Assembly (NCBI GenBank): GCA_018296165.2
Contig: JACKQL020000044.1
Span: 405,129 to 469,128 of the forward strand
From: Termitomyces sp. T153
Taxonomy: Eukaryota; Basidiomycota; Agaricomycetes; Agaricales; Lyophyllaceae
Direction of reading: 5' to 3'
DNA length: 64,000 bases
Of the stretch, positions 9,656 to 43,243 are shown piece after piece; within the stretch, counting starts at the first letter, position 1, and every line of letters begins with the position of its first letter. The translations under genes were made by a program, and so were the position numbers. The notes beneath the pieces were generated by a model. That model was not told the origin of the DNA. It saw nothing but the letters and a program-made list of their open reading frames with translations, and searched no databases.

Positions 9656-10077
9656 GATAGAGACTGCTACGAAGGTTACTAGTAGCAATCACTGACACAA
9701 GTCTCTTTATACTTCCACATCGACACAGGCACAAACAATTCGATCATTCCAAATTAACGTCGCATCACATTTTTCGCAACAGCTAACCTAACACGGGGCG
9801 ATGAGAAAATGATTCTGACAGATTTAGGGGTTCACCCCGGAGTGTAACGGATGAAATACATCAAAGGGGAAAATAATGATCTTAGCCGCCTTGGAAACAA
9901 AAATAGATTTCCACTTCTGATATTGGAAGAACCGATCATTGCCGCAGGAACTTGTATCATGGCCTTATCGTCTGAATCATGGTTCATTTCCGACCATGTC
10001 TTCGGACATTTCCTTGCTCACGTGGTGGTGAAACCTGCTTGGGCTAAATAACAAGTTCCTGTAGTTCGCCATCACCT
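9656..10077 (+). promoter_or_regulatory. Divergent promoter region upstream of P450-1
   Basis: This intergenic block lies between the membrane-protein pseudogene and P450-1. Long stretches are duplicated at 36710-36960. A compact part at 9915-9954 (TTCTGATA, then AACCGATCAT, then CCGCAGGAACTTG) is shared with 43071-43109 upstream of the terpene synthase. Distances to the respective start codons are about 124 and 135 bp. Shared sequence at a similar distance suggests a common control region, but no factor can be named. Confidence 0.5.
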
Positions 10078-12220
10078 ATGGCGCCGCCCTCAACTCTGTT
10101 CTCGATTGGCCTCGGCACAGTTATTATCTTTTGGGCCAGGTGTTACTTTTCAAAGAAACATCCACCGTTGCCGCCAGGACCTCTGGGGGACCCCATCATA
10201 GGCAACGTTCGCTCGATACCCTCGGATGATCAGGATCTCTTCTTTTATGAACTTGGGAAAAAATATGGTGCGTTAAGTCTACTACTATCTCATCCAAAGA
10301 TTCATCAGAAAGCAGGAAGCGTCTCATACCTAAGCGTTCTTTGCCAACCATTTATTGTGTTAAATAGCGTAGAAAGCGCTGTCGAACTTCTGGACAAGAG
10401 GGGCACAAATTACAGTGGAAGACCTAGATTTCCGCTGACAGAAGTGTCCGTCGTTTTCTTCCCTGCATTCTTGTTGGTCTATATGGCCGATTATATTCTG
10501 TTCATTAGGATAGGTTTTAGGCAGGCTCTCGTTTTTCTGAACTACGGAGCCGACTTTAGGTTACATCGAAAGATGCTACAGAAGTACTATGCTAAAGATA
10601 AGATTCTGCCGCATCGTCGAATCCTTATTCAAGAGGCCCGTATCCTAGTTCAAAACCTTGCTTCAAAACCTCAAAATCGGGAAATCATACTCCTGCGGTA
10701 TTATTTGCTCTCATTCTCCTATATCGTAACCATAAGGCCTAATTACTTTTGTGCCCTAGTTTCTCTACCGCGATCATCATCGCAGTTTCCTATGGACATC
10801 GAATTAAAGATGATGATGATCCTTACCTCAAAGTCGCTGATGACATGTGTCGCCTCGCAGTTCCCACTATCACCCCTCCCGAAGGCACAGTTGTTGACAT
10901 CTTACCGTGGCGTGAGTAAAATGTAATAAATTATATTTATAGATCCCTTGACAGACGCTTTACTAGTTCAACATTTTCCGTCATGGTTCCCTGGTACTTA
11001 TCATGTGAACCGTGCCAAAGAAGCAAGGAAATATGTTCGCCGCCTCTACGAGTACCCGTACAACGATGTTAAAAGAAAACTTGTTCGTTTATAAGTTCTT
11101 TCAATAACAGTGGCATGTCTTCACAACTATCTCAGGCGGACGGGACCGCAAAGCCCTCATTTCTCGCAACCCAGCTCGAGGAACTCCAGAATGGCGAAAT
11201 AGATGCTGGTGTCACCATCGAACATATTCAGGGTGCTTCGGCGATCACGTATGTTGCAGGCTCAGAGACAGTGTGTGAATTTATCCGATTGGGCAGCATC
11301 TAGTATTGACAACAGTTCCGAAGACGTCTTCTACGTTGTCCATCTTCATTTTTGCGATGCTCCTCTATCCGGAATGTCAAATCAAAGCCCAGGAAGAAAT
11401 CGACAGAGTGATAGGATCTGGTCGTCTTCCTGAGTTCAGTGATCGCGAGTCACTACCGTACGTCGAAAGTGTTTTACAAGAAACACAAAGGTAACTCTTC
11501 CACAACTGTGCGAGTTGTATAACTGAAGTGGATCAGATGGCATCCCACTGTCCCAATGGGTCTGTCCTGCTGATCGCTCTCCTACTAGTCAGTATCACTA
11601 ATACACTTAATCAGGCGTACCTCACTATTCCATAGAAGATGATGTATACAACGGTATGTTTATACCAAAAGGTTCTATTATAATCGCAAACGCGCGGTAT
11701 GTACCGCTTGCACACTGTCGATATGTTTTGGCTCTACTCATATTACGTTGACAGGGGGATGACATTGGATGAAAATGTCTACTACGAACCCTTCATGTTT
11801 AATCCCGATCGATTTTTCCCAAAGCCCATCGGCCGTGGAGAGCCACACCCTCCCACCAGCTTTGGCTTTGGGCGTAGGTTAGTCGCCAGCCAACGCCGAG
11901 ATTAACGGTTTAAACGTATATGACTCCCAACAGAATTTGTCCCGGCCGCTACCTTGCAGACGACAGTCTCTGGATTGCTATGGCTACAATTTTAGCCACT
12001 CTTTCGATATCCAAAGCGATCGGGGCGGATGGGAAGGAGATAACGCCTGAACTGAAGTTCGATTTGGGAGTAACAAGGTCGGTGTTTTCTGCGAAGTGCT
12101 GCTAAACCCGTTGAATCATCTTCTGATTACAGCCAACCACATCCGTTCGACGCTGATATCCACCCGAGGAACGCGATCGCTGGATCTCTCATTGCACAGG
12201 TCATGAATGAGATTAATTAG
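10078..12220 (+). CDS. Cytochrome P450 monooxygenase (P450-1)
   Basis: This is a haem-thiolate monooxygenase of the fungal microsomal type. It has an N-terminal membrane anchor (residues about 5-22), then the proline hinge PPLPPGP. The I-helix motif AGSET is near 11255-11270, the K-helix ETQR near 11480, MFNPDRFF follows, and the haem loop FGFGRRICPGRY spans the intron at 11878-11933. My exons are 10078-10267, 10316-10445, 10509-10697, 10760-10911, 10967-11082, 11136-11270, about 11316-11490, 11537-11559, 11615-11696, 11755-11877, 11934-12077 and 12133-12220, giving about 515 residues. No internal stop was found. The one unresolved point is the junction after AGSET, where the obvious 45-nt intron leaves the frame one base off, by a lost base or an unusual donor. 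The substrate is unknown; the neighbourhood suggests a terpenoid. Confidence 0.8.
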
Positions 12221-12759
12221 TGCCGTCGTTGTTTTCTGCATTGGTTGCTGACACTCGGATCCACCCGTTCTTCGTTAGAGTATATATTATCGTCACACAT
12301 TGTGTACTTAGATTGCTTGATTAATTGTTGCTATAGGTAAATCCATACAAGAACATTGGCATGAAAGTTTCCAGTTATGACCCTGCCCGTGTCAAAACTA
12401 GTATACTTGCTTCGGCTTTGCAAGCGAAGCGTTCATCAGTTACAGTGAATCGAGTCTGGAGAATAAACTTCGTTGTTAAATGGTACAGGCATTACGCCTT
12501 TGTTGAGAATTTATTCATCCTTCAATCTACACTGATATCTCCAGTGTCTAGATGAATGATTAATCTTATGTTACTGGTACTCTTAAGCATCCCTGATCAA
12601 TGTAGCAGGGTCCTTCCGACGAGGCTTTATGACACAGATACATTGTCTCTTCCATGAGAGTTGGGGTAAAGCATTGACAAGTCACAGTTCCTGATTTGTT
12701 TGGGAAGTCAGAACAAGCCTCACAAATCAGTACTAAAACTCAAATCATTTTCTCTTTCA
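12221..12759. other. Intergenic; no gene seen
   Basis: This stretch follows the stop of P450-1. Short ORFs occur (for example at 12361), but none has recognisable composition or homology. I see no support for a gene. Confidence 0.45.
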
Positions 12760-13110
12760 CAAAGTTGAACGGCACATCGCGCATCGCAAGGAGATCTTAT
12801 CGAGCTCCAGGAGCAAGACGTTCAAATCCAGCTCCAGGAAATCAGTCTGGGATAAAACAAACTGTGAGAAAAATGAGAAACGTAATGAGAAGTACAATGC
12901 AAAAGTCATTGTTACAAGTATACTCACGACTAGGAATCAAGTCGACTATATGGGCGCCAACCACACCCGCGGCTGCAATCGTGCATACCCCCTTTGACGC
13001 ACGCAATCTGAAGAACTGTGCAAGATATTCAAGATGTCGTTTGATCTTTCCCCGTATGGAACCTTGAAGTGGAAGTGCCCAGTTGCAGCCAATTCTACAA
13101 TGATCATAGT
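12760..13110 (-). pseudogene. Inverted, internally deleted P450 fragment
   Basis: The reverse complement matches two separated parts of P450-2. Its upstream part matches 38023-38110 (GATCATTG..., through to LAQ) and its downstream part matches about 38340-38585 (GAHIVDLIPS, an intron, then a WFPGA exon and LLAMRDVPFNFVKE). The roughly 230 bp between them is missing. Neither end of a P450 is present, so this is a dead fragment lying in opposite orientation to P450-1. The plus-strand ORF over it is an antisense shadow. Confidence 0.8.
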
Positions 13111-13700
13111 CCCTTAGATTATACCTTACTTATCTAATTATTATATTTTACATATTGCACATTTTACATAATATGCTAGTGCTTACATAAGGATAGTTTT
13201 TTGTGTTCTATACTACGTACAGGAATCCTAGTGATTGGGATACTTCTGTATCTGCGTGAATGCAAGCAGATAACCTGTAACAACGTTACAGTCTAGGCAA
13301 TGGGTAACTTCTATTTATTGTATATTTAGATCCACCCTTCAAGCCAGATAGACTTTTTTCCAGGGTTGACTTCTGCTTGGAGTTTTTCCGCCCCATAACA
13401 ACATTACATTTTTTTGCAGTACCCAATGTGATACTTGTATGGAAACCCAAAGAGACCAAGTGTATCCATTCAATGTTGGAAAAATCTTCTGGGCCGGATC
13501 AAGTGGGATGAGGCCAAATCAGGTGCCTTTAGACCAGTCCAATTGTCAAGCCTGATCAGATCAGTGGTGACTGATCAGACTTCAGCCTGATTAGACACAT
13601 GGTCTGACCAGGCACTGGTTCTGATTAGGCACAAGTCTGACATGGCCTGATTAGATCAAATGATTGTGGAAAATTATTAGATGCCAGTGCTTGTATTTGA
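13111..13700. repeat. AT-rich spacer with clustered CTGATTAGAC-like motifs
   Basis: No gene is seen. At 13545-13670 the motif CCTGATTAGA/CTGATCAGA occurs at least seven times in direct and inverted orientation. This is a pattern of the kind found in subterminal regions of DNA transposons. I cannot identify a transposase or terminal inverted repeats here. Confidence 0.35.
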
Positions 13701-13870
13701 TTCACCTTGCCTTACTTACTTACTTGTACTGACTTACTTTACTTACCTGACTTACTTACTGACTTTACCTTACATTTACTTATCTTACTTACTGACTTTA
13801 CTTTATATTGACACTTACTGACCTTAGTTTCTGACTCACTGTACTTTTACTTATGTTACTTTTACTTATG
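13701..13870. repeat. ACTTACTG-type tandem repeat, left flank of element C
   Basis: This is an imperfect array of TTACTTACTGACTTTACTT-like units. The same repeat continues on the far side of element C at 27735-27800, and the last five bases here (TTATG) are duplicated there. It is the target site of element C. Confidence 0.75.
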
Positions 13871-14087
13871 TGTAATGTTTCCATAATGGTTTGCACAGCT
13901 TATGGTTCACACCTTGTAAGTCAAAACCAGTTGATAGTTCTGTCTATGAAGTATGAAGTAAGGTGCTGCCTTACATAATTAAATGTATAGTACTTTTAGG
14001 GATAGCATCATGTGATGCTATCCATATAATTAAGTAATAAGAAAACTAAGTAAGAAAGGTGAAGCAAGTAATGGTAACTCCATTACA
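13871..14087 (-). repeat. 3' LTR of element C
   Basis: This 217-bp LTR pairs with 27534-27734. It contains a perfect palindrome at 13999-14022 with 11-bp arms (GGATAGCATCA) around TG. In the partner LTR one arm carries substitutions. The purine tract lies immediately beside it at 14088-14099. Confidence 0.88.
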
Positions 14088-14099
14088 TACCTCCCTTTT
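14088..14099 (-). other. Polypurine tract of element C
   Basis: On the minus strand the sequence AAAAGGGAGGTA abuts the LTR start TGTAATGG. The position and composition are those of the plus-strand primer site of an LTR retrotransposon. Confidence 0.7.
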
Positions 14100-16200
14100 G
14101 AGTCTGTTAATGAACTCACTTCCAAGAACAAATGAAGTAAATGAGAGACAAAGAGTGGGATACGGCATCCTACCCAAGAGGGTGCACTGGAATCCAAGTA
14201 TGAATTCCTACATATCGCTGTGGTAGAACTAAGCAGTTCTACATGCACAACATATATCTCAGCATGCTGTCCAACTGTGCTGAGTGGAGAATGTGGGCTA
14301 CTCAGGCCTGTGTGTGTTGATAGTGTTTATGTGAGCACCACTAGTCACTCACTCAGCTCATTTGTCCATCTTTGAGGCCTCTGCTTCCTTGCTGCTCATG
14401 ATGTCCACTCAGCACTCTAATACAGTGTTAGCTGTATCACTGGAGCCACTGGTTCTAGCATCAGGGGCAGTAGGAGTAGCAACATTAGTTATTACCACTG
14501 CTTCAGTGGTGCTGGGGACAATTTGTGGAGTCATCACTGGTTGGGCAGTTGTGGTCAATGCAGAATCATCAATGTAGTCCAATTTCATGGACTCCTATGA
14601 AGGTGCATTGTCTGAGGATGCACCAGAGCTTAATGCTGGATTAGTAGTGGCCAAAGCCACTGATGACAATGGCCCCTCCTCAGTTGGGGCTGCACTTGTG
14701 GAGGGAGCCACTAGCAAGAGTGTCTTTGCTGGCACCATCATGGCTCTCACTTCTGCAGGTCAGTGCAAGAGGTGAGTAAAGATACCCACCTCACCATAGC
14801 ACAGCCATTCAGCTATACTGAGGGGTGAGTGGCCTCTACTCTCATGGATTTGGAAGAGAGCATGTAGAGGTACTCCCTGTCACCAGCAGTGGGAGCATAC
14901 CACCCATTGTACCCCTGTACAGTGGGGGGTATTCCAATGGTTAAGAGTCAACAAAGGTGTTCATTGTCAACTCACATGAACACTAACACTAAGTGGTGCC
15001 TTATGAGTTGAGGATTCCTCAACAAACACAGATAGCTCAGTGCAAGCCTTCTTTGCCTCTGGAGGATTTGGAGGGAGGCAACATGCTTCCCCTTCCCCAA
15101 TGCTGAACAAAAGAGTCCATCTGGGCCTCATCCTTGATTTTGAACAATGGCAAGTTCATTCAGAACTTGAGCCAGTGCAAGTTGCACTACAGAGTTCTCA
15201 AGGACATCAGCACCAATGTTCTCTAGCACTCCAGCGTTGTGCAGTGGCTAGAGCAGTAGAGCAATTTGCTCATCTGAGGTGGTGGAAGGCTCATGCTCTT
15301 CAGCTTTGCCCTTGCCCTTCTGCTTTACAGAGAAGTGTCACCTAACCATCTTCTAGGTGGTTGACAAGAGAGTGCTACTTGTGCCAGTGCAGAAGATGAC
15401 ATTGCAGTTGCCTTACCTTTGCCTTTGCTAGTCAAGGTGGCCTATGGTTACTCTGATATGCTGGAAGATGCAGAAGGCACATCAAAAGTATGTGCCAATG
15501 TAAGTAGCAGCAGATATGACTGCCTAGGAGATGCCAACAACTCCATCAGAGCCATAATCAACTCTGAGCCCTCATTGTCACCTTCTCTTGCCTCTGCTGA
15601 TGATGCTGCAGGGACAGAGATCCTTACTTGTGAAGATATTGTGGCAGGTTGTTGTTGTTGACCTGCCATGCCCATTGTACAGCTGAGGCTGACCATTGGA
15701 GGTGGGGCCACAGTAAATTGTGGCACTACATATTGTTGGAACTCCTGGGACCACACTAGTAGTGTGGCCACAGTATATTTCCAAAGTTGGATTGAGGGGG
15801 GGCCAGTGGTCTCCCACATCCTCTTCCTGCTCCTTGAGGAGGAACTTGTGTTCCCCCATGCCCTCTGCCTGCTCTGCCTCATTGCAGGAGCACACTGCAT
15901 CCCCATGCTGGCAACTGTTGCATTGCCACTGTGTAGCTAAGTGGGGCCACATCTCCTGGCAACACTGACAGTCCTCTGCTTATAGGACTTGTGTGTCTAT
16001 GAGCTGGGGCTGCTCTTCTCATTGTTGGGAGTGCTATGTTCCCTGGCACTAAGCCTCCTGCCAGTGCAGCAAAGCCACCAAAGCCAGGGAGTGCACTGCT
16101 CCCTGATCCTCCTCCTTTTGAGCTCTGTCCAGAGCTCATCAGACAACTTGGCAGATCTAGATCTGCCTCACTAGCTTGTTTCTTTTTCTTGCCCATGGGA
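14100..16200 (-). pseudogene. Third reading region of element C (Lys-start, Cys cluster)
   Basis: Downstream of the integrase on the same strand as pol, a reading frame starts at 16196 with MGKKKKQASEADLDLPS. It runs through a Gly/Ser/Ala-rich segment. In a shifted frame (about 15985-15890) it continues into a cysteine cluster with the pattern CxCC, then CxxC, then CxC, followed by an acidic Glu-rich stretch. Below 15.4 kb the frames are badly broken. Plus-strand ORFs at 14362-14775 are low-complexity and probably shadows. The cluster could bind metal or nucleic acid, as zinc-knuckle-like modules do. I do not recognise the family. Confidence 0.4.
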
Positions 16201-16347
16201 CAAGGAGTCTCCTTGTAAAGTTAGTGTGTAGCATCAACGATGTGAGAGAAGACAAAGTTCAGTTGGACTTTGTGCTCAGCTAAAAAATTGGCTGACATAA
16301 TTATTGATGGCCACCAGCACAGTGGCCTATTAACCTTCTGGAATAAG

Positions 16348-17511
16348 TCAAGTTGACTTAGACCTTCTAGCCAACTGTGCAGGGCACTGCATGCCCTGCA
16401 ACTTGAGATATCTGTCAAGGGCTGCCAGGTCCTTGCAGGTCTTGAGAGACTCCCAAGTGGTGTCCCCAAGACTCCAACAAACCTCAAATTTGAGGTTCTT
16501 ACTATCCCAACAATGACCTACTAGATCATTGACAAACCATTCTTGGTTGTCTGAGGTGCCAAAGTTGTAAGGCTCTGGCATCACCCTATTGGAAAACAGT
16601 GTGTTGTTGCTGACCTTATGCAGTTGCAGCAACAATATATGGAACTTAGGGTGTAATCTTGGTTCCTGGAGTGCCATGGGCAACTCTAATATATAGTTGG
16701 ATGTCTCATTGTAGGCCTTCAGAATTCTATACAGCCAAACCCACTTTGAGCAGAGCTTTCTTGCTCTGCCTTTATGCAGGTTGAGATTTTTTGTTGAAAG
16801 GTACACCAATGCACATTTCTTGAGGTCAGGATCAGGCCTGCAATGTGAGTTGGCCATGCACATCTCTCAGATGCATGCCTCAATCATTGTGTCATGTGCC
16901 ACTGCCAAGTTCTTTAGAGTTTGGCAGGCAAATTGCTAGATTCCTCTTGAAATTTCAGTGTCTGACCTAATTACCCATATCATAGATGGCATGTACCCAC
17001 CATTCAACTCAAACAGTGCAAATTGTGTCATCTCAGACATACTTGTGTTTATCATGAGTTCTGTTAAGTCTATACAACTAAACCAATCTTTTTGGTCTGG
17101 TTGTACCACCATACAAAGGATCTGGCCAATGTTTCTATTGGCACATTTAGTCTGACCATCTATCTGTGGATGAAACAATGTAGACATTAGGAGCTTTGCT
17201 CCTAACAGCTTGTGTAGTTCGTGCCACCATTTGGATGTGAACTTTGAGTCTCAATCACTGATAATTGAGCTTGAGAGGCTGTGTAGCCTCACAATCTTAC
17301 ACATGTAAATCTAGGACAGCTGCAATGCTGTCATGATAGTGTGCACCAGAATAAGGTGCAGCATGCTTGTCATCTGACATATAACTACTTTTAGGTAGTT
17401 ATACTCTTTAGACTCAGGGAATCCCTTGCTGTCATTACTGGCAGCAAGTACTTGTGCCTCCTCATAACAAATGCTGTGACAATTGTGCATTTGCCTACTT
17501 CTATGGCATTT
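16348..17511 (-). pseudogene. Integrase and chromodomain-like tail of element C
   Basis: The minus strand reads the integrase core near 17430-16940 (EYNYLKVVICQMTSM, then LGAKLLMSTLFHPQIDGQT, then IGQILCMVV). It continues with the C-terminal barrel near 16690 (LPMALQEPRLHPKFHILLL) and a chromodomain-like end near 16510-16400 (FEVCWSLGDTTWESLKTC, DRYLKL). Several stops occur. The region is cut at 17511, where the nested family-B element begins. The N-terminal zinc-binding part is only partly present. Confidence 0.8.
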
Positions 17512-17832
17512 CCACAGCTTGTTTAACATCTCTGGAGCTTGTTTCAGAGCCATGGAGATCTCTAGAGAACTGTAGAACTCTCCATATTACCTCACCAATC
17601 ATTGTTCTAGGGTTAGGACTAGCTCCAGCTTCCTGTACAGCAGTTCTCATGCTTCTGTCACTCACTGATGCACTGTGCTAAGAAGCAGGAATCCTTAGAC
17701 TTGTTCTCTTTGGATTCCCCTCTAGTAGGTGACTAGGTACTGATTATATTGTAGTCTACTTGCTAATATACTTTAGATTCTCCTCTGCTAGCTGTGTGTT
17801 TCAGATCTGCTGCCCTGGAGGTTGCCCTTATA
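17512..17832 (+). repeat. 5' LTR of B1, start missing
   Basis: Homology to the other family-B LTRs begins at ACAGCTTGTT and ends GTTGCCCTTATA, where other copies end TTACA. It is followed by GCAGAACAA, also seen directly after the LTR at 30298, which marks the LTR/internal boundary. Confidence 0.82.
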
Positions 17833-17899
17833 GCAGAACAAATCTCCTAAAACTGGTCTGGAAGCCCCTCATAGCTGCAAGAAATCTCTGAGCCACTAT

Positions 17900-19140
17900 C
17901 TGTTGCTTCTCCACTAGGATTAAGTACCACAGAGTTCTATGTCTCAGCTTGCCAGCCTAGACACCCCCTCAGAGGCCCTGGCCTTCCAGAACAAAGCCTG
18001 GACCCATCTGCTACACTTAGAAATCAGGTGCAATTAACACAATCATCTTTCATCCACTACACAATTGAACTCTCCACCCTCTGTCAAATCACAGATCTTA
18101 TCTCCCAATTGCTCCAGGCACTGCTTGAACACCTGCCTCCTATGTCCACACCTCCCTCATCTATAGGACTAGGCCTGACTGCTTCTGCACCCATCCCCAC
18201 AGCTCTAGTGATCCTATAGCCACAGATTTTATGCCTTGTACTACCAGATGCATACAATGGTGCTTGTTCTGGCAGATAACATTTCCTCCAATTCTGCCTC
18301 ACACTCCAATGTGTTCAAAATAGCCTGGGTACTGTCATACAGAAAGATTGGACATGCCTCCACCTACACATTATGAGTTTTCTGTTACTCTGGAAGCATT
18401 GGAAGTTTCCTGTACTGGGCTGCCTTCAAGAAGGACTTCCATGCAGAGTTTTTCCCACTATATCTTGCCAAAAGTGCTGGCTTGATGCTATGTGACAGGG
18501 AGCAATATGGGCAAGGAAAGTGTATGCTGAATGAGTACATTGACTCCTTCCAGGCACTGGTTGAGCAAGCTGCCTACCTCTATAGCCTTCAGTTATGCTT
18601 CACAATTCAGGATGGCCTGCACTCTGCACTGGTAGAATGCATTGACAATCTTGCAGAGGGCTACCCAGACAATAAAAGGATTGTGTCATAGTATGAGGTG
18701 GCCCAGGATCAGTAGCAACTCATAGAGATCCAGAGAGAGCTCCACCGCCCACATCCCATGCTGCACCCAACTCTGGTTGTTAGCCTTCACCACCCTATAC
18801 CTGCTTGCCCAATGCCTGCCCCTACTCTGGCCATCCCTGCAACATGCCCCCTGCCACTGGGTATTTCCAGGGACATGGATGCAGCTAGACAGCTCTATGC
18901 TGTGCCACTACTGTGCCAGAGATGCCAGAAGCCTAGGCACTTTGCACAACACCACTGCCTCTTGAGTCTGGAGGTATATTACCTCTCTACAGCAGAGCAG
19001 GAGGAACTTCTCCTGCAACTGCTGGCTGCAAAGGATGCTGCCAAAGCTCTATTACCAGATAAGCTAACACCAGAGTTGACCCTAAAGGAGACTAGCATGT
19101 GCATGTCACTCCCAGAGCTGGAGGAAGATTTTTAGTTGAG
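17900..19140 (+). pseudogene. Gag of element B1
   Basis: The region contains a gag core (for example 18482-18691, YGQGKCMLNEYIDSFQALVE and SALVECIDNLAEG). A Pro-rich linker follows, then a zinc-knuckle-like stretch CQRCQKPRHFAQHHC near 18910-18955. Frames are broken at several points, for example the TAG near 18689 and another near 18714. The same protein is recognisable in B2 at about 30.4-31.5 kb. Confidence 0.75.
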
Positions 19141-19369
19141 CAATGGATGAGATGTATGCCTCTTGCTGAATGCTAATAGATTCTCATGCCTGTTGTTAGA
19201 AAATGAAATTGCCTTTTCAGATGCCTCTTATTCTAAGACAGAAGAACCTCAATGTTCCCCTCCAGACATACAAATACCAACTCCAGAGCCCTGCCAAACT
19301 CCCCAGCACCTGCTAGGCTTTGCTAGCACTGCCCTTTCTGGGTGCATCAAATGCCCTGATAGTACATAA

Positions 19370-22300: not shown

Positions 22301-22950
22301 CCTCAGAGAATGAAGCAGTAAACAAATTTGTGAACTAGATGAAGAGGTCATAGAAGGAGGCCCAGGCAGCACTGGCAAAGGCAAAGGATGATATAGTGCA
22401 ATACTACAACTACGGGAGGACCTCAGAACTCAAATACTAGCCCAGAGATTGAGTCTACCTAGATGCCTCCAACATTACAACTACTCAGCCATCAAAAAAG
22501 CTGTTGCACTACTAATTGGGACCTTTCACAGTGGAACAGCAGGTAGGGCCCCTAGCCTGCTGACTCCAGCTCTCTGTGGGGATGCGCCAGCTTTATCTGG
22601 TGTTCAACATAGTCAAACTGACTGCAGCCTCAAAGGATCCTATTCCAGGGTGATGTCCACTACCCCCACTACTTCTGGTAGTGGTTGAGTATGAGGTGGA
22701 GGAAATCCTGGATAGTCATTTATTCTGGCAATGACTATAATACAAAGTGAAGTGGAAGGGCTACAGGATTGAGGATATCTCCTAGGAACTGTGGGAGAAC
22801 ATACACACTCTGGGGCTCATCAAAGAGTTCCACTGGAAACATCCAGATGCTCTGCATGCCATACAAGGAATTTACCCTATTTTGCCAGTGGACTGGGAAA
22901 TCAGGGACTTTTTCTACCTGCATGTCAAGATGCCACATGCTAGAGGGGGA
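19370..22950 (+). pseudogene. Pol of element B1 with C-terminal chromodomain
   Basis: The protease motif is degraded (DSRAMELFLDSEFV near 19468). Reverse transcriptase covers 20160-20870, with DVWWGYNNMHIQEGDEWKAT, FGLTNSPATFQTMMN and YLDNILIYT at the catalytic box. RNase H lies at 20930-21230 ([13 protein letters not shown]). Integrase follows with a zinc-binding part (HNFCTAGHPRQWK... CNLC), the core (VASMDFIVELP) and the C-terminal barrel, then a chromodomain near 22.69-22.85 kb (EVEEILDSHLF, VKWKGYRIEDIS). Stops interrupt every domain. Confidence 0.85.
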
Positions 22951-22954
22951 GTGA

Positions 22955-23274
22955 TGTCAGGGGACTTCCATTTCTGACCTCTGCAACTTGTTCCAGCATC
23001 TTCACAGCTTGTTCAACATCTCTGGGGCTTGTTTTAGAGCCATGAAGATCTTCAGGGAACTGCAGAACTCTCTGCATTACCTCACCAATCATTGTCCCAG
23101 GATTAGGACTAGCTCTGGCTTCCTGTACAGCAGTTCCCACACCTCTGCCACCCACTGATGCACCATTCTAAGCAGCAGGGATTCTTAGACTCATTCTCTT
23201 CAGATTCCCCTCTGCTAGGTGATTAGTTACTGATTGTATTGTCATCTACTTGCTAATATACTTTGGATTCTCCT
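22955..23274 (+). repeat. 3' LTR of B1, end missing
   Basis: It starts TGTCAGGGGACTTCC directly after the purine tract TAGAGGGGGAGTGA. It aligns with the other family-B LTRs but stops at GGATTCTCCT, 48 bases before the LTR end. There the sequence switches to element C (RNase H start, minus strand). Confidence 0.82.
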
Positions 23275-24330: not shown

Positions 24331-24380
24331 TTGTCATGCAAGGCCATTAGACAAATCTCTGATTTGTCTGATATGTTTAG

Positions 24381-27300: not shown

Positions 27301-27420
27301 GTGATGTGGCAAATTCTGATGTTCTATGTGGAGCACTCTTTAATGCTCTATTGAATTCTGTCTCAGACATAAGCTCAAGCACCTGACCTTCCATGGTTAC
27401 CATGGTGCCCATTGTAGAAG
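24381..27420 (-). pseudogene. Gag of element C with zinc knuckle
   Basis: A classic CCHC zinc knuckle, CYKCGKTGHFAHEC, is read at about 24730-24690. Upstream are the gag capsid-like pieces (25357-24998, DVLCDAVYAVKEGVQGFYDT and KFTIYEQFLRGVPSNM; 25746-25522). Further upstream are long Pro/Gly- and Ala/Gln-rich N-terminal segments at 25999-25760, 26635-26363, 26959-26654 and 27205-26975. Stops and frame changes separate the pieces. The large N-terminal part makes this gag longer than that of family B. Confidence 0.78.
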
Positions 27421-27533
27421 GTGCATGTCAAAAATTTTAATGTGCTGATTATAACTAGTGGCAGTGAACCTCTTTCACCAAAGTTTGGGTTCCCACTTTG
27501 CAAATGAGTTAATGCTTGTTTGACTTAGAAAAA

Positions 27534-27734
27534 TGTAACGTTTCCATTACAGTTCACACCTTGTAAGTCAAAACTAGTCAATAGTTCTGTCTATGAAGCA
27601 TGAAGTAAGGTGCTGTCTTATATAATTGAATGTATAGTACTTTTAGGGATAGTGTCATGTGATGCTATCCATATAATTAAGTAATAATGAAACTAAGTCA
27701 GAAAGGTGAAGCAAGTAATGGGTGCTCCATTAAA
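27534..27734 (-). repeat. 5' LTR of element C
   Basis: This is the 201-bp partner of 13871-14087. It is followed at 27735-27739 by TTATG, the duplicated target site. The palindrome of the other copy is at 27647-27670 here, with one arm mutated. Confidence 0.88.
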
Positions 27735-28180
27735 TTATGTCACTTACTGACTTTACTTTATAATGACCTACCTTGATATTGATTTATTTTACTTACCATA
27801 GTAGATATTTGTTAGTTGATATGAGCTGTTATATTCAGATGGTAGAACTTACCTTGGTGGGGGTATAAACCTGGGACCTTGCATGAGGCTCACTCTACAA
27901 ATGTTTATAATACTTATCACTAGGTTAAGCAACTAGCTATATATAGAGAAATGGGCTTAACATATGCAATACTTGTAAGAGGCCCCTCTGGAATTGCTTA
28001 AATGTCTTTCTGACATCACTTTATTAACACTACCTATTGTAAGCAACAAATGATGATTACTATTGACAACTTGTATAATACAATATAATACACTATTTAG
28101 ACATACTGTGCTCTTGGTCCAAGAAGAGGATGAGACTGTAAATTTGGAAAGATCAGTACAAGATATAGATTCCATCTGAG
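27735..28180. other. Right flank of element C; target repeat, then spacer
   Basis: The TTACTGACTTTACTT repeat of the left flank resumes at 27735-27800. From there to 28180 no gene is seen, apart from the tRNA-like segment at 27856-27935. Confidence 0.5.
27856..27935 (-). repeat. Possible tRNA-derived SINE head
   Basis: On the minus strand TAACCTAGTGA fits the pol III A-box consensus except for one G-to-A change. About 50 nt later GGTTTATACCC fits a B-box in which the central CG has become TA. Both changes are the kind expected from CpG decay in this block. The sequence does not fold into a good tRNA, so an intact tRNA gene is ruled out. A SINE or tRNA relic is an inference from the two boxes only. 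Confidence 0.35.
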
Positions 28181-29982: not shown

Positions 29983-30298
29983 TGTCAGAGGACTTCCATT
30001 TCTGACCTCTGCAGTAATTTCTGTGGCTTGTTCCAGACCCCTGGAAATCTCCAGAGACTCTTGAAACTTTCTGTAGTTTCTTGTCAAGCATGTCCCTAGG
30101 GTTAGGGCTAGCTCTAGCCTTCTGTACAGTTGTTCTCATGCCTCTGCCACCTGCTGATGTGCTGCACTGAGCAGCAGGGATTCCTCTCTGCTAGGTGATT
30201 AGTTACTATTTGTATTGTCAGTTACCTTGCTAATATTCTTTGCATTCCCCTCTGCTAGCTGCATAATTGAGCTGCTGCTCCCAGAGGTTGCTCTTACA
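29983..30298 (+). repeat. 5' LTR of B2
   Basis: This is a family-B LTR of 316 bp, shorter than the 403-bp solo copy because of internal losses. Its end TTACA is followed by GCAGAACAA, as in B1. Confidence 0.82.
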
Positions 30299-30389
30299 GC
30301 AGAACAAGTCTCTAACTCTAGTCTGGAAGCTCCTCATAGCTGCAGGGAACTCCTAAGCCCCTATTTGTTGCTTCCTCACAAGACTGAAG

Positions 30390-33300: not shown

Positions 33301-33980
33301 GCAGAGATGGATCCAGTAAAGGTGGCAGGTGTTGTGGAGTGGAGTGGCTGGAGTCCAAGAACAAGAAGGAGGTGCAGGCCTTACGAGGCTTTGCTAACTT
33401 CTACTGGAGATTCATTCAGGACTTCTTGTATCATGCCTGCCCTCTATTTGACCTCACTGCAAAGGACACTACCTAGAGCTAGGGGCCTCTGTAGCAGACA
33501 GCCTTTGATGCTCTCAAGGGTGCTATCACCTCCAGACCAGTCCTCCTCCTCCCAGACAACTCTCCCTTCTGGGTAGAAGCTGACAGCTCCAACTTTGCCA
33601 CCAGAGCTATTCTATCACAATGGTCTCTGGAGGATGGGGAGTGGCACTCAGTGGCCTTCTACTCCAAGAGCCTGAATACAGTAGAGCACAGCTACAAGAT
33701 CCATGACAAGGAGATGCTGGCCATCATCCAGTCCTTTGAAGAGTAGCAGCATTTCTTGGAGAGTGTGCAGCATAAGTTCAAGGTTTGAATAAATCACAAG
33801 AACCTCAAATACTTCCAGATGGCTAAGAAGTTCAACTGCTGACAAGCCCAGTAATCCCTTTACCTAGCCAACTTTGACTTCTTGCTGCACCACAAGCTGG
33901 GCCAGAGTATGAGGAAGCTGGACACCCTGTCCCAGAGAGTAGACTACACTAACAATCCAAGCCATGGAAGGTCTAGCACA
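30390..33980 (+). pseudogene. Gag-pol remnants of B2
   Basis: The gag part resembles B1 (YGQRKRTLNKCINSFWALVK near 30960; a degenerate zinc-knuckle stretch near 31370). Reverse transcriptase pieces include FRLTNSLATFQPMMNNIF (33067 on). RNase H is read at 33570-33950 (EADSSNFATRAIL, YKIHDKEMLAII). Numerous stops are present, several of them TAG or TGA where B1 has a Gln, Trp or Arg codon. Confidence 0.8.
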
Positions 33981-33984
33981 TCTC

Positions 33985-34209
33985 CAGGGTTAGGGCTAGC
34001 TCTGGCCTTCTGTATAGTTGTTCTCATGCCTCTGCTGCCTGCTGATGTGCTGCACCAAGCAGCAGGGATTGTTAGACTTGTTTTCTTTGGATTCCCCTCT
34101 GCTAAGTGATTAGTTATTATTTGTATTATTGGTTACCTTGCTAATATACTTTGGATTCCCTTCTGCTAGCTGCATGATTGAGCTGCTGTTCTCAGAGGTT
34201 GCCCTTACA
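33985..34209 (+). repeat. 3' LTR of B2, start missing
   Basis: Homology to the other family-B LTRs begins at CCAGGGTTAGGGCTAGC and continues to the terminal TTACA at 34209. The upstream half was lost with the integrase region. Confidence 0.8.
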
Positions 34210-34246
34210 AATGCTCCCTTACAGCTCCAAGTCTTGAAACACTGGG

Positions 34247-35760
34247 CAAGAAACTCCCACAAACTAAAAGCCAAGACAACCATTGGAATGTTTCTTTCTG
34301 GGAGTAGTTGCAATGACAGGATTGGGTTAAGAAAGAAAAGATTCAAGGAGGGAAATTGGATCAATTTGCCTTTATTACAGATAGCAACAGTGAAGCCCTT
34401 TCAAAAAACAATTGAAAGAGATTGTTGATACTGCACAATCATCTTGGAATAAATTGAATTAGTACTTGGAGGCCCCATCATCCTGGAAGAAGAAGTCACA
34501 GATAGCAAAGGATTTTTTTTATCACACTATGCTTACTAGACACCCTGAGTTTCACTTAGCTGACAGTTATTGGAAGGTAGAGTGCTATGCAACAACAAAG
34601 TATCCAGACTGGATCCAGAACCATCCAGATCAAGAAGGAAAAAAGTTCACATGTATGTTTTCTGTCTCTTTTGCACTATGACTGACACTATCTTTTGAGG
34701 TAAACAACTATATGACTACAACAGGACCAATGAACTAAGGCCAAACAAGTGGAAGCATTTGTCCTCCCCCCTGCATGATGTACCAATACTCGAAATCAAT
34801 GATGATGGATTCAAAGGTTCATCATTGCTTACTCTTATCATTTTATCAATTCAAGTCTTGTATTTTAGATTCAAAATTGCCAAAGGTTACTTCACAATTG
34901 AACAAATCAGCACCACCATCAGCAGTGACAAGCATTGTGTTGGGTCTTCCCACCACCATGACCAGCATCACTCTGCCATTACCAAGATCAACTTTCCCAG
35001 TCACTCCATGAGAACCATCCACAAAGGCTCCTACACTTGTGTCCCCACCTGCCTCAGTTGTCTTGTCAGTTCTGGCACCTGTTTTGTCATTTTCAGAGGC
35101 TCTGCCATTGGCTAAATCAACTCTGTCCCTGTTTACAGCTCCAGACACCTTCCAAACTCAGTCATCAACCCCATCCATAAGTCATGCCCAACTATCTAAG
35201 CAACCATCAATGCCATCAAATGCATTCATTGAATCCAATTAAATTGCACTGAATCTATTGAAAAATTTGCCTCCTAGTCAACATTCAAAGCATTGCAATA
35301 TTCTCAACCCACTGTAGGTAATTGATTTCTTGTCTCAAGCACCTGCTCAATATATCTTATAGGAAAATGTCATGATCCCACTGCCACCTGTTACAATTCC
35401 TAAAACTGCCTTGATTGAACCTCAAATCATGAAGAAATCCACTGTGACATCAAAACAACTCCAGCCCAAAGACGAAGTGGTGACTGCTTGGTGGGTTTGA
35501 TCAATTCAAAATTTTTATTGACATACTGACATTGTTCATGTCCAGGAACCTTTACCTCATTGACTACCTGGCATCATATCCCAACACCACCAAAGGTGAG
35601 TTTGCAGCAGCATGGAAATCTTGCAATGGACTAACCAAAGAGGTGTGCAATGTTCATTGTCTTGTGTACCCAATGATTGATATATTGATACTCCATTCAC
35701 ATAGAATTATCAACAACTATTGAAAGAACAAACCAAGATACAAAAGAAGGGTGACCAGCC
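34247..35760 (+). pseudogene. Decayed gene of unknown function (plus)
   Basis: A plus-strand reading path starts near 34247. It includes a well-formed segment, KEIVDTAQSSWNKLN, then a TAG (probably from CAG), then YLEAPSSWKKKSQIAKDFFY and HPDQEGKKFT (34404-34650). A Ser/Pro/Thr-rich low-complexity stretch follows at 34775-35240, and further broken pieces reach about 35760. It lies head to head with the decayed minus-strand gene ending at 29982, with element B2 between them. No family recognised. It is CpG-poor like its neighbours. Confidence 0.4.
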
Positions 35761-36299
35761 AACCAAGAATTCCTTGCATGCCATGCCAATGTTGACACAT
35801 ACCAACAAGAACTATTGCATTTCTTAAGGTATGCTCTGTTGTTGTTGCTCTTGAATTTGCATTTTGAAGCACTCCAAATGATACAGAATGGATGGAATGT
35901 ATAGCAACAGATTTGTTCATATAGGATCAGATAGAATACTGTAATACAATCAAAAATTAAATTCATTAGCTTTCAGAATTGACTGTGTGAGACCATATTT
36001 ATATGGAAATACACTCAGATAGTAACAAATGGTACCGTAGACTACCATACTAGGATCTGAAAACCCAGCAAATTTCAGGGCTCTACTGGATCTGGAATCC
36101 TTTCATATATTTCCAGATATACCCTGACCAGGCCCAATCCAGTTCTCACTAGGGATAAGGTTTTAGTAAAGACTGGTAAACAGCAAGTGGGTGAAAACAC
36201 GAGGCTCTTAGTGGCGAGCCCTTAATTAGGAAGTAAAGCAGAAAAGGAAATAAATAGACTTTTAGACTTCTTCGTGATTGGCGCATTTCCTCAAATAGA
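35761..36299. other. Spacer; end of the CpG-poor block
   Basis: No gene is seen. CpG dinucleotides, almost absent from about 13.5 kb, reappear from about 36.03 kb onward, so this marks the edge of the transposon-rich block. Confidence 0.5.
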
Positions 36300-36710
36300 C
36301 ATAGATCATGTCCTTGACAACCTCTCACCCCAGCCGATTCATGATGGGCCGAATGTCATTGATATTCACAATGAAAGTGTCGATATTACGAGCCAGTGTC
36401 ATGGAAACATGAACTGATGCCAGCAGGTACCTGTTCAACCCGGTCAGTCATGCGTTTCCTTATGAACTACAAGTGGGCAGTAACCTACATAGTAATGACT
36501 ATTCCAAGGAACAAAAAATTTCTGGAAGGCCCGAGCGAGTGAACGTAGACATTGCGCAGATTACAAAAATGACTGTGAATGCACCTACGGAACAGAAATC
36601 AGTGTGTCAACTGGATAATGATAATTGCAATACACCAGAGTGAAGCCGCACACCAAGAAGCAACGAGATATGACTTGTCGATTGGGAAGTTTACGGCCAT
36701 CTGGTGAGAC
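36300..36710 (-). pseudogene. Fragment of the duplicated membrane-protein gene
   Basis: Nucleotide sequence closely matches 9240-9650 (the 5' exons of the membrane-protein pseudogene), including the block ATTACGAGCCAGTGTCATGG at 9331 and 36386. The downstream exons present at 8.4-9.2 kb are missing here. Frames are more degraded than in the first copy. It is a segmental-duplication relic. Confidence 0.75.
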
Positions 36711-37635
36711 GCGGAGAAGAAACTGCTACGAAGGTTAGCCACCACAAAGTCTCTTTCTACTTGCACATCGACACAGGCATGAACAATTCGATCATTGCAA
36801 GTAAACGTCGCATCTTCTTTGCAGCAGTTAACTTAACGCGGGGTGATGAGAAAATGATTCTGAAAGATTTAAGTATCTATAGGTAACCCAGAGTGGCAAT
36901 GGACGGAATGAAATACATTGAAAAAATCGTCATCTCCGCCGCCTTGCAAACGGAGATAGATTTCCACTAGATTTCCACATTCCATTTCTGTCTATCATCA
37001 ACGCCAAAACTTTCTGATATTCAAGAGCCGCAGGGACGTATAACATATATCTATCAGCGCTGAAACTTTCTGATATTCGAGAACCGAGTAAATCGGGATA
37101 CGCTTTGATTGGCCGATCGTGACATCATTATGCTCCCGCGCTTCCGTTGGAAATGGAGACATCGCCGCCACGTGCGCTGGAAGAAGATTCGGAAACGGAG
37201 ATCAAAGGGAAATCAACTGGGGACCCCAACTGGGTTCACATGTTGGAAGGCAGTTGTGATGGATCGGGCTACATGTACCACCATAAGCCGACTATAAGAC
37301 CTCGGGCTCAGAGCATGGGCGAGACTCTGGACAGCTCTCCGGTAGTCCGACTTAGCAAAAGGCAATCCAGCCCAAGTACTTGTGCTGGAAACTTCGAAAG
37401 GGGGTTCAATCCGGGTATAAGAGGAAGCCGAAGCAGGTGCTTCCTGAAGGGGAATACAGTTACGAGAGGGCTGTATAGTTGTTAAACAACAGACCGATTG
37501 ACAAACGAAATCGACAAGCATCAAAATTTCACCATGGAAGACAAATTCTCTGTTTCGGAAAATATGAAGGGTGACCAAGTTCAGTTAGATAAAAGCTCGT
37601 GATGACCTTATCTCAATCGAATATTCCCTAATGAG
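36711..37635 (+). promoter_or_regulatory. Duplicated upstream region of P450-2
   Basis: 36711-36960 is a copy of the region upstream of P450-1 (9660-9905). At 37012-37036 and again at 37071-37090 there are degraded versions of the TTCTGATA...GAACCG block shared with P450-1 and the terpene synthase. No convincing gene is present in the remaining sequence. Confidence 0.45.
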
Positions 37636-39784
37636 ATGTGGACCGTGCATGCCTTTGTTGTGGTTCTCGTTATCATCCTCTATCGGCTTATCATGAGATT
37701 CCACGCCCGTTTACCCCCTGGCCCCAAACCACTGTTTCTGCTGGGGAATTTATTTGACGTCCCCACAGATGCTGCTCAGTAGAAGGTCTACGCAGAATGG
37801 GGAAAGAAATATGGTGAGTATACAAGTAACACTATTTCGTAGTTGATGAATTAGCATCAAGGCGATATGACTTACTTCGGCGTCATGCAAAAATCGGTCA
37901 TAGTTATCAATTCTGTCACAATTGCGCACGACCTTTTAGAGAGGCGAAGTGCTATCCCATGTCCCAATGGCAGGCGATGTGTACGTGTCGGTCTTGCCTT
38001 CATTGACTTTAGGAGTAAATGATCATTGCAGAATCGGCTGGAATTGGGCACTTCCACTCGTTCCATATGGGGAAAAGTTCAGACGACATCGCAAATATCT
38101 TGCACAGTACTTTGCCAAACAATGCCTTCCAGATCACTATCACATCCAGCTGAAGGAAGCACGTCACTTGGTCAATGATCTTTTGGACGATCCAAACGGG
38201 TTCAAACACCATATCGAGCGGTATTCACATTCTATCACTTACTATACGCGGAATTGACAAAACTCTATAGCATGGCTGGAGCCGTGATAATGGAGATCGT
38301 CTATGGCCATGAAGTAAAGTCCATTGACGATAACTTTCTTCAAATTGCGTCCAAGGGGGGACGCACGATAGCAGCCGCGGGCGCGGTCGGCGCCCATATA
38401 GTCGACTTGATTCCTAGTCGTGAGTATACTTGTATCAATGACTTTCGCGTGGTACTTGTCATCTCTCACAGTTCGTTTCATCCCAGACTGGTTTCCTGGA
38501 GCTAGATTCAAACGGCTTCCTCCTGGTACTCGAGAAGATCTCCTTGCGATGCGCGATGTGCCGTTCAACTTCGTGAAAGAGAAAATGGTTCGAGTTTCGG
38601 TACTGATTTGTCACGCTTGTTCTGACTTCCCGAAGAAATTAGGAACTGCTTCTCCATGCTATACCTCAACTCTGATGGAAGAGACAATGTACCAAGGATG
38701 AGGAGGGTGTAAGAGATACTGCAGGGAACATATATTCGGGTAAGCTTCAACAAGCATTATCATCAAGGACTTGGACTAACGGTCAACTCATGGTGATCGA
38801 TCAGCGGGCTTCGATACAGTATGTGCTGAGCTTTCTACGATTCAAAGTCTAAAAATGATGGATTAAGACTCTCGCTGCACTTATGACCGCCATACTGGCG
38901 CTAGTACTCGATCCCGTCGTCCAGGCTAGGGCTCATGCGGAACTCGATTCTGTCATTGGAAGGAATCGTCTTCCGGACTTCTCTGATCGCGAAAGGTTGC
39001 CATACATTCACTGTATCATCAATGAAACGTTTAGGTGTGGTGGTATATTGGATTCAATGTGACCTTTCATTAACGCAGGTGATACTCTTTCTTTCCATGA
39101 TTCAGGTGGGGAGTAGTAACGCCAGTTGGTAGGTGGTGATAGATATATGGTTTTGTACGTTATTGAAACATGTTTTCCTAGGCGTACCACACCGTCTGAC
39201 ACAGGACGACACGTACAATGGATACTTCCTCCCAGCGGGTACCACAATAATAGCAAACACCTGGTGCATAGCTTCAACTCTGTCATGCGGCTTTATGTTC
39301 ATTGTATTCTAACAAAAAGGGCAATGTTGCACGATGCGAACGTTTTCGCTGATCCGGAACACTTTGACCCAGACAGGTTCCTTGTAGGAGAAGGTCGGAC
39401 GCCTCCCCTAGATCCCAGAGGACCTGCATTTGGGTTTGGTCGACGGTAAGCCATGAGACTGCCTTGACAATCAATCCCTGATTAAATCTGTTTTATGTAG
39501 CGCCTGTCCTTGGAATGATATCGCCGAGAATACTCTCTGGATTACTATTGTTTCCATGTTACATTGTTTCCAGCTCATGCCAGGCCTTGATGAGAATGGA
39601 AAAGAGATACCCATCAACAACAAGCACACGGAGCGTAGCGTTCGGTATGAATCGTCTTCTTCTGTATTGAAGAGTGGAATCCTGATGTGGCTATTTTTGC
39701 AGTCATCCTGAACCATTCAAGTGTGTCATAAAGCCTCGTTGGAAGGACTCTGCTACACTGATCAGGGATGCTCAAGGGAACTAG
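37636..39784 (+). pseudogene. Cytochrome P450, broken (P450-2)
   Basis: A P450 gene laid out like P450-1. It has an anchor and hinge (MWTVHAFVVVLVII, LPPGPKPLFLLGN) and the C-helix region (WALPLVPYGEKFRRHRKYL, about 38040-38100). VDLIPS and WFPGA exons follow, then an I-helix AGFDT and LALVLDPVVQ. The K-helix is ETFR, followed by FDPDRFLVGEG and the haem loop FGFGRRACPW. Lesions: an in-frame TAG at 37780-37782 (codon 49, where Trp is expected), frame changes around 37.9 and 38.7 kb, and Trp in place of the conserved Gly after CP in the haem loop. The final codons run to TAG at 39784. Dead, but recently enough that all domains are recognisable. Confidence 0.85.
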
Positions 39785-40379
39785 TCACATAAGATATATT
39801 CGCTCATCAAACTGGAGATACCAGTATTACATTCACATAGATTCAAGAATGAATAATGTCTCGACACTGGCTCAATGCCTGTACCATTTAACAGTGAAAT
39901 TTATTCTTCAGTGGCTATGTTTGGTCACTAGGATGACTTTGTTTGTTAAATTTCATGTATTCTGGCTTTGTTTTTGTTATCAGTGGTGATGGCTGCGCCA
40001 CGACGGAGCTATGGCCTGAGAAGTGTGAGGGTCCAATGCCACACGCAAGGGACGCCGCTTAAGCATTGATTATGAGAACCTCGCGAGAAAAAGGGGGATC
40101 TATCAGGACATGTGCGTTAAGGGGCTTGGGAACAGCTTTGCAAAGTGTTAATGAACCACCAAGTGCTCTTGCCAGCAAGATGGACTCCTTTCCGGAAAAG
40201 GTCAGTTATCTATATAGGGAGGTCGAGTCTAACACAGGAAGAGGCAGAGGTCAATATAAGATTTTTAGCCTGTTGAGTAAGTTTTCATAGTACTGGCTGC
40301 CAGCCCATGCCACAAGTGGAAGGCAACTTGAGGCAAGGGACTAGAGTGCGTTCCATACCAGTGACGTGAGACTTCTGAG
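39785..40379. other. Intergenic; no gene seen
   Basis: This stretch lies between P450-2 and the retroelement fragment. Short ORFs only, none with recognisable content. Confidence 0.45.
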
Positions 40380-42060
40380 ATGAATGGAAAACTTGCTGTA
40401 GAAGCAGAATCAGGAAGGACTTCTTCTCAGGAAAAACTCAAACAGAAGAGAAAGAAGAATTGATACATGTTGCAAGGAAGCTGTGGACTGAATTTGCTGT
40501 TCTAGAGTTGAGCCAGGCCACCATATGACTATGCCACACATGTCCCCACTTCACATAGAGAACAGAAAATATCTCCTTGAACTGGGTACCACAGCTGCAG
40601 AAATGCTGAGGCAAACATTTTGTAATACCACTAATTCAGGATGACTCCCTCAATACCCTTCCTTCTACTTGCATCAGTGTAACCTGACACAGAAGGTAAT
40701 CATGGTGCTATGAGCATAATGTCATCCAGTGCAAACTGAATGTACTCCACCACAAAATGTCTTAGCCTGCAGACTTAGGAATTGAAGATGTTGAAAAGGG
40801 ATAGTTGAACAAGGTGGAAGAATCAAAGAAACAGTGAAGGAAAGTCCATGATTGAGGTATAACTCATGAGTCAAAGTCCAAGAAACCAGTGAGTCCTGCA
40901 GCTCAGGAACGAGCATGCCCACTTTAATGACCATGTATGCAGGAGCTCTGTTATAAAAACCATTTGATTATGTTGGAGGCAAGTCTTCATTGCCTCAGAA
41001 TCAATCTCAAGCCCCAGAAATTCAAGTTTAGCTGCTGGCCATAGTGCTTTAGAGTCCTGGAAGAAGAGCCCTAGCTCCATACCAATGCTCAAAATCCATT
41101 TGAATGACAGTGTACAACATTAAGGGCAGTGTAAGGAGGAGAGAATATGAGAAGGAAATAATCCAAACAGTAGCAGAGCAAATCAGAGATGTGATGCTCA
41201 ATCTTTCATGGTAAAGCCTCCAGTGAAACACTAACCCTAATACTAAAAGCAAATACAATAAGGTAATATAGCCTTGTAGTTTTGCCATTGATGACACTTC
41301 CAAGGTGGTGGCAATCATCCAAGGCTCCTTGCAAACATGCCATAGACAATATGGCCCTTGCTATCTGGGATCCCATCATTAACCAAAGTGGTTAATCAAG
41401 TGTAACTTCTCAGTTCTCTTCTTGTGCCCAACCACACCCAGTCATGAGCAACAAATGATTGGGAAAGGTAGGGAACTGAGGGATGAGATTGCTCAAGAAG
41501 GGAAAGAATGGATATCTCTGATAATGCTCCTCACCAACAAATCTGATATTAGCTCCAAATATGATTATATTGAAGTTTGGTATTCCATCCAGAGCCCTCT
41601 TCCATTCAGGGAGGCTGCAGGAAACTTTCACAAGTTTGCCCACCTCACAGGATGACTTTATGCAGTTGGCAAGGGAGTTGACTTTCTCATTGCCTGTCAA
41701 GCTTGCAAAATAGACTGAATCTATGAGATCAGTCCATGTAAGAGGACTACTGCAATATATAGAGAGCCAGTCACCACATCCAGCAGCTTGGACATTGTGC
41801 TCTTTTGGGCCAATTGGTTGAGTGCTTGGACTGGCAAGTCTTCCACTCACAGTCCAGACTCCTCAACACATGTCAGATAAATCACTCTTCTTTCCCTACA
41901 TATCCTCTTCTCCTCCATCTGTCCCGACTACTATTGTCCGACCAGAATCTCAAATGATGTGTGTATTTTTTATAGACAATATTCCTTCATTCTCAAGTTT
42001 TCTTAACAGCGGTCTCCAGGTATGAGATTCTGGGACAAAGGAGGGTAGACACCAGCTGGA
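40380..42060 (-). mobile_element. Decayed tyrosine-recombinase-type (DIRS-like) retroelement fragment
   Basis: This is a CpG-poor block with minus-strand coding remnants. The best are LEFLGLEIDSEAMKTCLQHN (about 41020-40960) and, upstream in the same strand, a degraded catalytic region LDYFLLIFSPPYTALNVV (about 41180-41110). FLGxExDxxAMxxxLP followed by Lys is characteristic of the reverse transcriptase of DIRS-like elements, in which the palm motif is followed by this block. Further pieces lie at 41850-41410. No tyrosine recombinase, split repeats or ends could be found, so the assignment rests on the short reverse-transcriptase motifs. Confidence 0.5.
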
Positions 42061-42953
42061 TGGGTCAAGCTTACTTTAGGTCGGGATAAATGGCTTAGTA
42101 GAATGTCTCCCATCACCTTCAATACATATTAGCAGTAATCAGCCTTGCAATTTCTTGGGTCACTATGAACAAAATGGCAATATAGATCCAAATATGCCAG
42201 TTGAAGTGGACAGTTCAGTGTCATAGCCATAGTTTCGATATTCTGTCAAAGCAATGTTATTTTTTTTTCTTGATATTCCACTAACACTAAGTACACAATA
42301 AACACTCTAAAGAGGAACGAGTGGATTAGAGTGTCAGCAACCAATGCAGAAGCCAACGATGGCACCATTCATCCGGTCGCTGAACCGCCACCCAGCCCTC
42401 CCGCTGTCGTCTTTAATCATCAGGAACGAACAGGCTAACCGTATGCAAGATGGAGATCAAACACAGATACGAAACGCTCACAAAACATTATAGGAGCCTC
42501 GGTGACGTGTCTAACTAGAGATCCCCACGCCTTACTCAGAGCGTAGAATGAATCAATATTATTATACTGATGGCAGCTCTAGGATCAGAAATCCCATCAA
42601 ATACATCCGTTTTCGATACTCTGGCTGACCTTTGCTAGCGCTTCCAGAGTCCTGAAGACTAAGCGAGTGGAACTTGAAGCCGAAACGAGCCTTGACCTTT
42701 GACAAGTGAACGAGAGATATTGGAGATAGACACCTGCTTGGTACGTCTCCTTTCCATGACGTCTTCGTTTTGTATCAATTGATGTGAAACTTATCCCATA
42801 GTAAGACGCCGTTGATCCTTCAAAGACCGCCTATCGCATCCGTCCAGAAGGCTTGCAGCAAGCGACATCAATAATATTGTGCTATGTCCAAGATATTTCC
42901 AAGGGACGAATACGTTGACCAAAATGGATTCCCCTACATTATAATCATGGTCG
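42061..42953. other. Intergenic; no gene seen
   Basis: CpG-normal sequence without recognisable coding capacity. Confidence 0.45.
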
Positions 42954-43243
42954 TACTATCATTTTGATTTCGTCTAGTCAGGGATGATCGGAAGACGACC
43001 TTTTCCTCCTTGAAAGTTCCTATCCTGGTTTCCGAATCTACCGAGACGAAGCTTCATCATTGCTGAAACATTCTGATAGTCGAAAACCGATCATGCCCGC
43101 AGGAACTTGAAAGCCCATATTGAAATTGGGACCGCGAGCGTATGAGTAAGCTTTGATTTGAGGAATCTCGAGTTGCATTTGTACTGGCACAATCATATTT
43201 AGAAGCCTTCGATGAACCAATTTCCACATCTCCCCAACCCAAC
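42954..43243 (+). promoter_or_regulatory. Third copy of the shared upstream block, before the terpene synthase
   Basis: 42954-43060 matches 8395-8530, the 3' end of the membrane-protein gene. 43071-43109 carries TTCTGATA, AACCGATCAT and CCGCAGGAACTTG, as upstream of P450-1. The intervening body of the membrane-protein gene is missing. The block ends about 135 bp before the terpene synthase start codon. Confidence 0.55.

Follow-up and report, generated by a model that had tools for sequence, protein, structure and literature searches.

Shared blocks upstream of two P450 genes and a terpene synthase in Termitomyces sp. T153 are most probably decayed duplicates of a membrane-protein gene

Throughout this work, the window is the whole stretch of 64,000 nucleotides of Termitomyces sp. 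T153 that we analyzed (contig JACKQL020000044.1, positions 405,129 to 469,128), whose right edge is the contig end. It contains three P450 genes on the forward strand, P450-1 (10078–12220, PF00067), P450-2 (37636–39720) and P450-3 (45840–47480), together with a terpene synthase gene on the same strand (TS, 43244–44519), assigned to the Delta6-protoilludene-type synthase clade by the Terpene_syn_C_2 domain, its PDB match and a tree. P450-3 lies downstream of TS, and pieces of a major facilitator transporter (44880–45800, forward strand, PF07690) are found between them. Three copies of an intron-bearing membrane-protein gene, here called M, are on the reverse strand: M1 (8405–9648, start codon at 9648, delimited by spliced alignment to Leucocoprinus protein P0241), M2 (36331–36968, from BLASTN and spliced alignment) and M3 (42953–43052, the last ~100 bp of the gene, from BLASTN). 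Behind P450-1 lies part of the P450-2 region copied in inverted orientation (12220–13107, reverse strand) and broken; its counterparts fall within 38019–42365, the copy at that place having ~2.4 kb of additional sequence at 39911–42297.

The earlier note had reported one and the same block preceding P450-1, P450-2 and TS, and BLASTN and a shuffle test bear this out. Three homologous blocks in the same orientation stand head to head with P450-1, P450-2 and TS, respectively: copy 1 covers 8405–9954, copy 2 covers 36331–36968 and 37053–37087, and copy 3 covers 42953–43052 and 43071–43109. With BLASTN inside the window, 9275–9915 matched 36331–36968 (79.8% identity, E 3e-166), 8405–8478 matched 42953–43027 (76%, E 3e-8), 8501–8525 matched 43028–43052 (92%, E 7e-4), 9915–9954 matched 43071–43109 (87.5%, E 1e-6) and 37053–37087 matched 43056–43090 (85.7%, E about 2e-5 to 4e-5). 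The best local scores among the upstream regions of P450-1, P450-2 and TS were 214, 53 and 45, above the maxima of 31, 28 and 29 obtained in 300 shuffles each. Chance similarity of the blocks is ruled out by these E values and by local scores exceeding all shuffles.

The composition of the blocks had been described as the end of a membrane-protein gene plus a short promoter block. This is correct for copy 3, where ~100 bp of the 3' end of M adjoin the final ~54 bp of its flank (43056–43109, forward strand, from BLASTN and local alignment) and the middle is deleted, but not for the other two. Copy 1 is the whole M gene with ~300 bp of 5' flank (9649–9954, no strand assigned), and copy 2 is the 5' part of M plus flank, with the flank end doubled and degraded (37014–37087, forward strand; BLASTN for 37053–37087, the first half by eye). 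Copies 1 and 3 remain similar up to 9954 and 43109, 123 bp before the ATG of P450-1 and 134 bp before that of TS, in agreement with the spacing noted earlier; for P450-2 the distance is about 550 bp. Past the block edges, toward the genes, we detected no sharing: the observed scores were reached in 488 of 500 shuffles for P450-1 versus TS, 241 of 500 for P450-1 versus P450-2 and 150 of 500 for P450-2 versus TS. The downstream genes differ in sequence, as had been stated: P450-1 and P450-2 share just two short DNA matches of 27–28 bp, and TS is unrelated. Hence, given collinear homology upstream of these genes, the proposal that a single segment was placed by duplication in front of several distinct biosynthetic genes holds. 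A recent duplication of whole M-P450 units is rejected, as the P450 genes are barely alike while M1 and M2 are well matched (531 of 617 aligned bases identical). Between M1 and M2, 236 of 265 exon bases, 210 of 243 flank bases and 84 of 107 intron bases are identical (exons versus flank, P = 0.42; introns versus flank, P = 0.08). By these identities, the flank and the exons of a dead duplicate have been preserved to about the same degree, and the comparison with introns is a hint at most. Counts of 53 transitions and 33 transversions between M1 and M2 gave no strong transition excess of the kind left by repeat-induced mutation.

DNA searches of the 72.4-Mb assembly (307 contigs), which pass over very common words and are thereby limited in their sensitivity for dispersed copies, found no further copy of the block; one 45-bp piece at 36250–36294, outside the block, matched contig C19. 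A scan of the region before P450-3 and of the rest of the window gave no match to the block, and the 30 kb of contig before the window gave no match to the three blocks or to six homologous proteins (M, TS and P450). The window itself is crowded with retroelement-like repeats and frames. Among its repeats, a 184-bp direct repeat (13905–14088 and 27552–27735, 91% identical, 13.6 kb apart) possibly represents the terminal repeats of a long retroelement, and 53875–54380 is a near-perfect tandem duplication of ~250 bp (99% of aligned bases), beside which lies a gene that by eye resembles a tannase or feruloyl esterase. Dense tandem repeats occupy the contig end (61918–64000), with short units containing GGACTCGCAG and an array of a 48-bp unit.

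Our integrity audit took in the three M copies, the three P450 genes and TS. P450-1, with 512 residues and 11 introns, is the sole intact gene among those audited, and all 512 residues equal those of protein P0121 of Termitomyces sp. T112, given as a T. cryptogamus strain in PMC10021994. Its intact reading frame suggests that P450-1 probably still works as a gene. M1, 195 of whose 311 aligned residues are identical to Leucocoprinus P0241, is a pseudogene carrying in-frame stops at 9468 and 8736 and frameshifts near 9254 and 8886 in the spliced alignment. The truncated M2 has a frameshift near 36522 and a stop at 36327, just beyond the BLAST match. P450-2 is a pseudogene with an in-frame TAG at 37780, near its start, to which the comparison with a distant homologue adds a frameshift near 38864 and a doubtful stop. 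The reading frame of TS is broken as well, a circumstance absent from the earlier note: it shows an in-frame TAA at 43740, after roughly one third of its length, and a frameshift near 44420, close to the end, and by eye we saw no splice site able to skip the stop. Finally, P450-3 is a pseudogene with TAA at 46675 and 47250 and a frameshift near 46786. All lesions come from one assembly, and single ones could be assembly or base-calling errors; in P450-2 and P450-3, all but TAG 37780 and TAA 47250 depend on alignments of ~38% identity. Taken together, the lesions in M1, M2, TS, P450-2 and P450-3 make such errors hard to uphold as an explanation.

The duplicated segment ends in a 40-bp core (9915–9954, forward strand) that contains AACCGATCAT and CCGCAGGAACTTG and in which 35 of 39 aligned bases are identical between copies 1 and 3. 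Both motifs are identical in these two copies, as reported, and both are absent from copy 2. The identical stretches are a 10-mer and a 13-mer. On its own AACCGATCAT is not rare, as there is a third exact occurrence at 56771 and its one-mismatch count is within chance. The genome-wide search that had been suggested found the exact motif pair only twice in 72.4 Mb, both times at this locus, and four times when up to three mismatches were allowed, the extra two being one sequence on two contigs. At an identity of 80–86%, the 35/39 match has a probability of 0.09 to 0.35, and an identical run of 13 bp is expected in 32–59% of cases. Core conservation between copies 1 and 3 is thus not above the neutral level of the remaining duplicate and, lacking extra conservation, we read the motif likeness as the edge of a duplicate and not as a regulator site. 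We infer that the 10-mer and the 13-mer are alike from the overall similarity of the copies and not from the binding of a known regulator. The leader of P450-1 also contains a perfect 11-bp inverted repeat, CAGGAACTTGT, at 9945–9955 and 10051–10061, with the first arm inside the block, and the pair at the same spacing occurs at no other place in the assembly. CACGTG is found at 10019, upstream of P450-1, and at 37169, upstream of P450-2, with none upstream of TS.

Regarding the protein encoded by M, it is predicted to have seven helices in a Ste2-like bundle, and it belongs to an uncharacterised, unnamed seven-helix family. At E up to 10, the M1 translation matched no Pfam family. DUF6534 (PF20152), a Pfam family of unknown function, was considered for M and rejected: 1 of 19 members of the M family matched it, at E 0.11. 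M is 7% identical to the class D GPCR Ste2 (7ad3), with a Foldseek best E of 0.008, and rhodopsins and other receptors score 15–16, so the match speaks for the bundle and not for a function. We found 24 homologues of M, one of them in Armillaria nabsnona. Elsewhere in the genome (contig C15, L061:2800-9000), a weakly M-like seven-helix gene, a weakly TS-like gene and a P450 gene lie within ~6 kb.

The best PDB match of TS is the Delta6-protoilludene synthase 8h72 (E 7e-91, residues 11–312). Unlike that synthase of solved structure, the TS of the window carries a stop and a frameshift. A synthase of the protoilludene clade is therefore present though not intact, and all three P450 genes lie within 37 kb of it, physically clustered as in a protoilludene-type cluster. 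The likeness extends to what is described in PMC7778616 for the melleolide (armillyl orsellinate) cluster of Armillaria gallica, which joins a protoilludene-type synthase with several P450 genes and includes two genes of unknown function; relative to that description, the window differs in its broken TS, two broken P450 genes out of three and three decayed M copies. In the trees, M1 groups with Leucocoprinus (98/99), and TS falls into a clade (100/99) shared by Leucocoprinus, Tricholoma and Tephrocybe. Within this clade, Leucocoprinus (Agaricaceae) has the closest relative of TS, and the cluster may have been transferred horizontally.

M and TS homologues share a contig, as judged by equal contig size and with TS matches limited to the best 120 of 320, in four of the five species having both an M and a TS match among those listed: Leucocoprinus birnbaumii, G. 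marginata, C. sonorae and F. alnicola, but not G. morchelliformis. In L. birnbaumii, M (NP233_g8992) and TS (g8994) are on a 20-kb contig and a second M (g451) is elsewhere. The linkage is looser in G. marginata, C. sonorae and F. alnicola, whose contigs measure 0.56–0.79 Mb. By locus-tag order, homologues of P450-1 are near TS homologues at two loci of Tephrocybe rancida (DXG01_010511 with 010513 and 010517; 003613 with 003614). M is probably an old member of the protoilludene-type cluster, and the region probably a cluster remnant, as this comparison of genes suggests. No row named Termitomyces appears among the best 120 of 320 TS homologues or among the 24 M homologues, which fits a genus-wide loss of M and TS; annotation gaps would look alike. 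Word searches of open papers found none joining a protoilludene gene cluster with an integral membrane protein, none on seven-transmembrane proteins in terpene biosynthetic clusters of Agaricomycetes, and none on promoter duplication in fungal secondary metabolite gene clusters; on promoter motifs they gave one review, which treats another subject.

According to these results, the blocks are most probably what is left of a single gene that was duplicated repeatedly in a terpene cluster since decayed. M would have been the seven-helix membrane protein of a Delta6-protoilludene-type cluster. The anatomy of the copies shows that it was duplicated with its own 5' flank inside the cluster, the copies coming to face P450-1, P450-2 and TS. 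The cluster later decayed, and all M copies, P450-2, TS and P450-3 now carry stops, frameshifts or large deletions. The identical 10- and 13-mers would be the edge of the duplicated segment, and the surviving P450-1 has the M flank within its upstream region. Some observations speak against decay alone: P450-1 is intact with the block within its upstream region, spacings as alike as 123 and 134 bp are not predicted by a purely accidental breakpoint, and the flank is slightly better kept than the introns. As the flank lies upstream of the only gene to survive, it may have a regulatory role at P450-1. Concerning the original of these copies, a sub-case of this explanation whose probability overlaps with it, TS may have held the source in an old head-to-head M-TS pair, from which M and the shared promoter were copied to the P450 genes. 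The two gene numbers separating M and TS on the L. birnbaumii contig favor this arrangement, which is nevertheless doubtful: one gene number intervenes there, orientation is not visible, and copy 3 has been reduced further than the other two.

One could argue, in line with the earlier note, that the block is a control region, with the M flank acting as a two-way promoter and duplication having put P450-1, P450-2 and TS under one regulator, at least before decay. All three copies are head to head, the spacing before P450-1 and TS is similar, the motif pair is confined to the locus, and M, TS and P450-1 homologues are cluster-linked in other fungi. We nevertheless consider this unlikely, because the core shows no extra conservation, copy 2 lacks both motifs, nothing is shared past the edge, P450-3 has no block upstream, and only P450-1 is intact among the three downstream genes. 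For a live cluster the idea fails, as all M copies, P450-2, TS and P450-3 are broken; a whole-cluster regulator does not describe the present state. A more elaborate version, in which M would be a GPCR-like, cluster-borne terpenoid receptor or carrier and the flank its divergent switch, would have M travel with protoilludene-type clusters across Agaricomycetes and the module die in Termitomyces, leaving three promoter relics, one of them driving P450-1; we regard it as rather improbable. The objection that the block could be part of a transposable or dispersed repeat, inserted by accident before three genes, might draw on the retroelements crowding the window and on the perfect 11-bp inverted repeat spanning the P450-1 leader. 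It is very improbable: neither by DNA, motif pair nor inverted-repeat pair did the genome yield other copies at the sensitivity of the search, and the copied unit is an intron-bearing protein gene.

Reading the blocks as decayed duplicates removes a tempting case of promoter recruitment, since motifs that are identical in front of unrelated genes can mark no more than the border of a duplicate in decay. Two leads come out of this work: a seven-helix family without a name that is linked to synthases of the protoilludene type, and the natural disappearance of a terpene cluster from a fungus farmed by termites, datable across Termitomyces strains.
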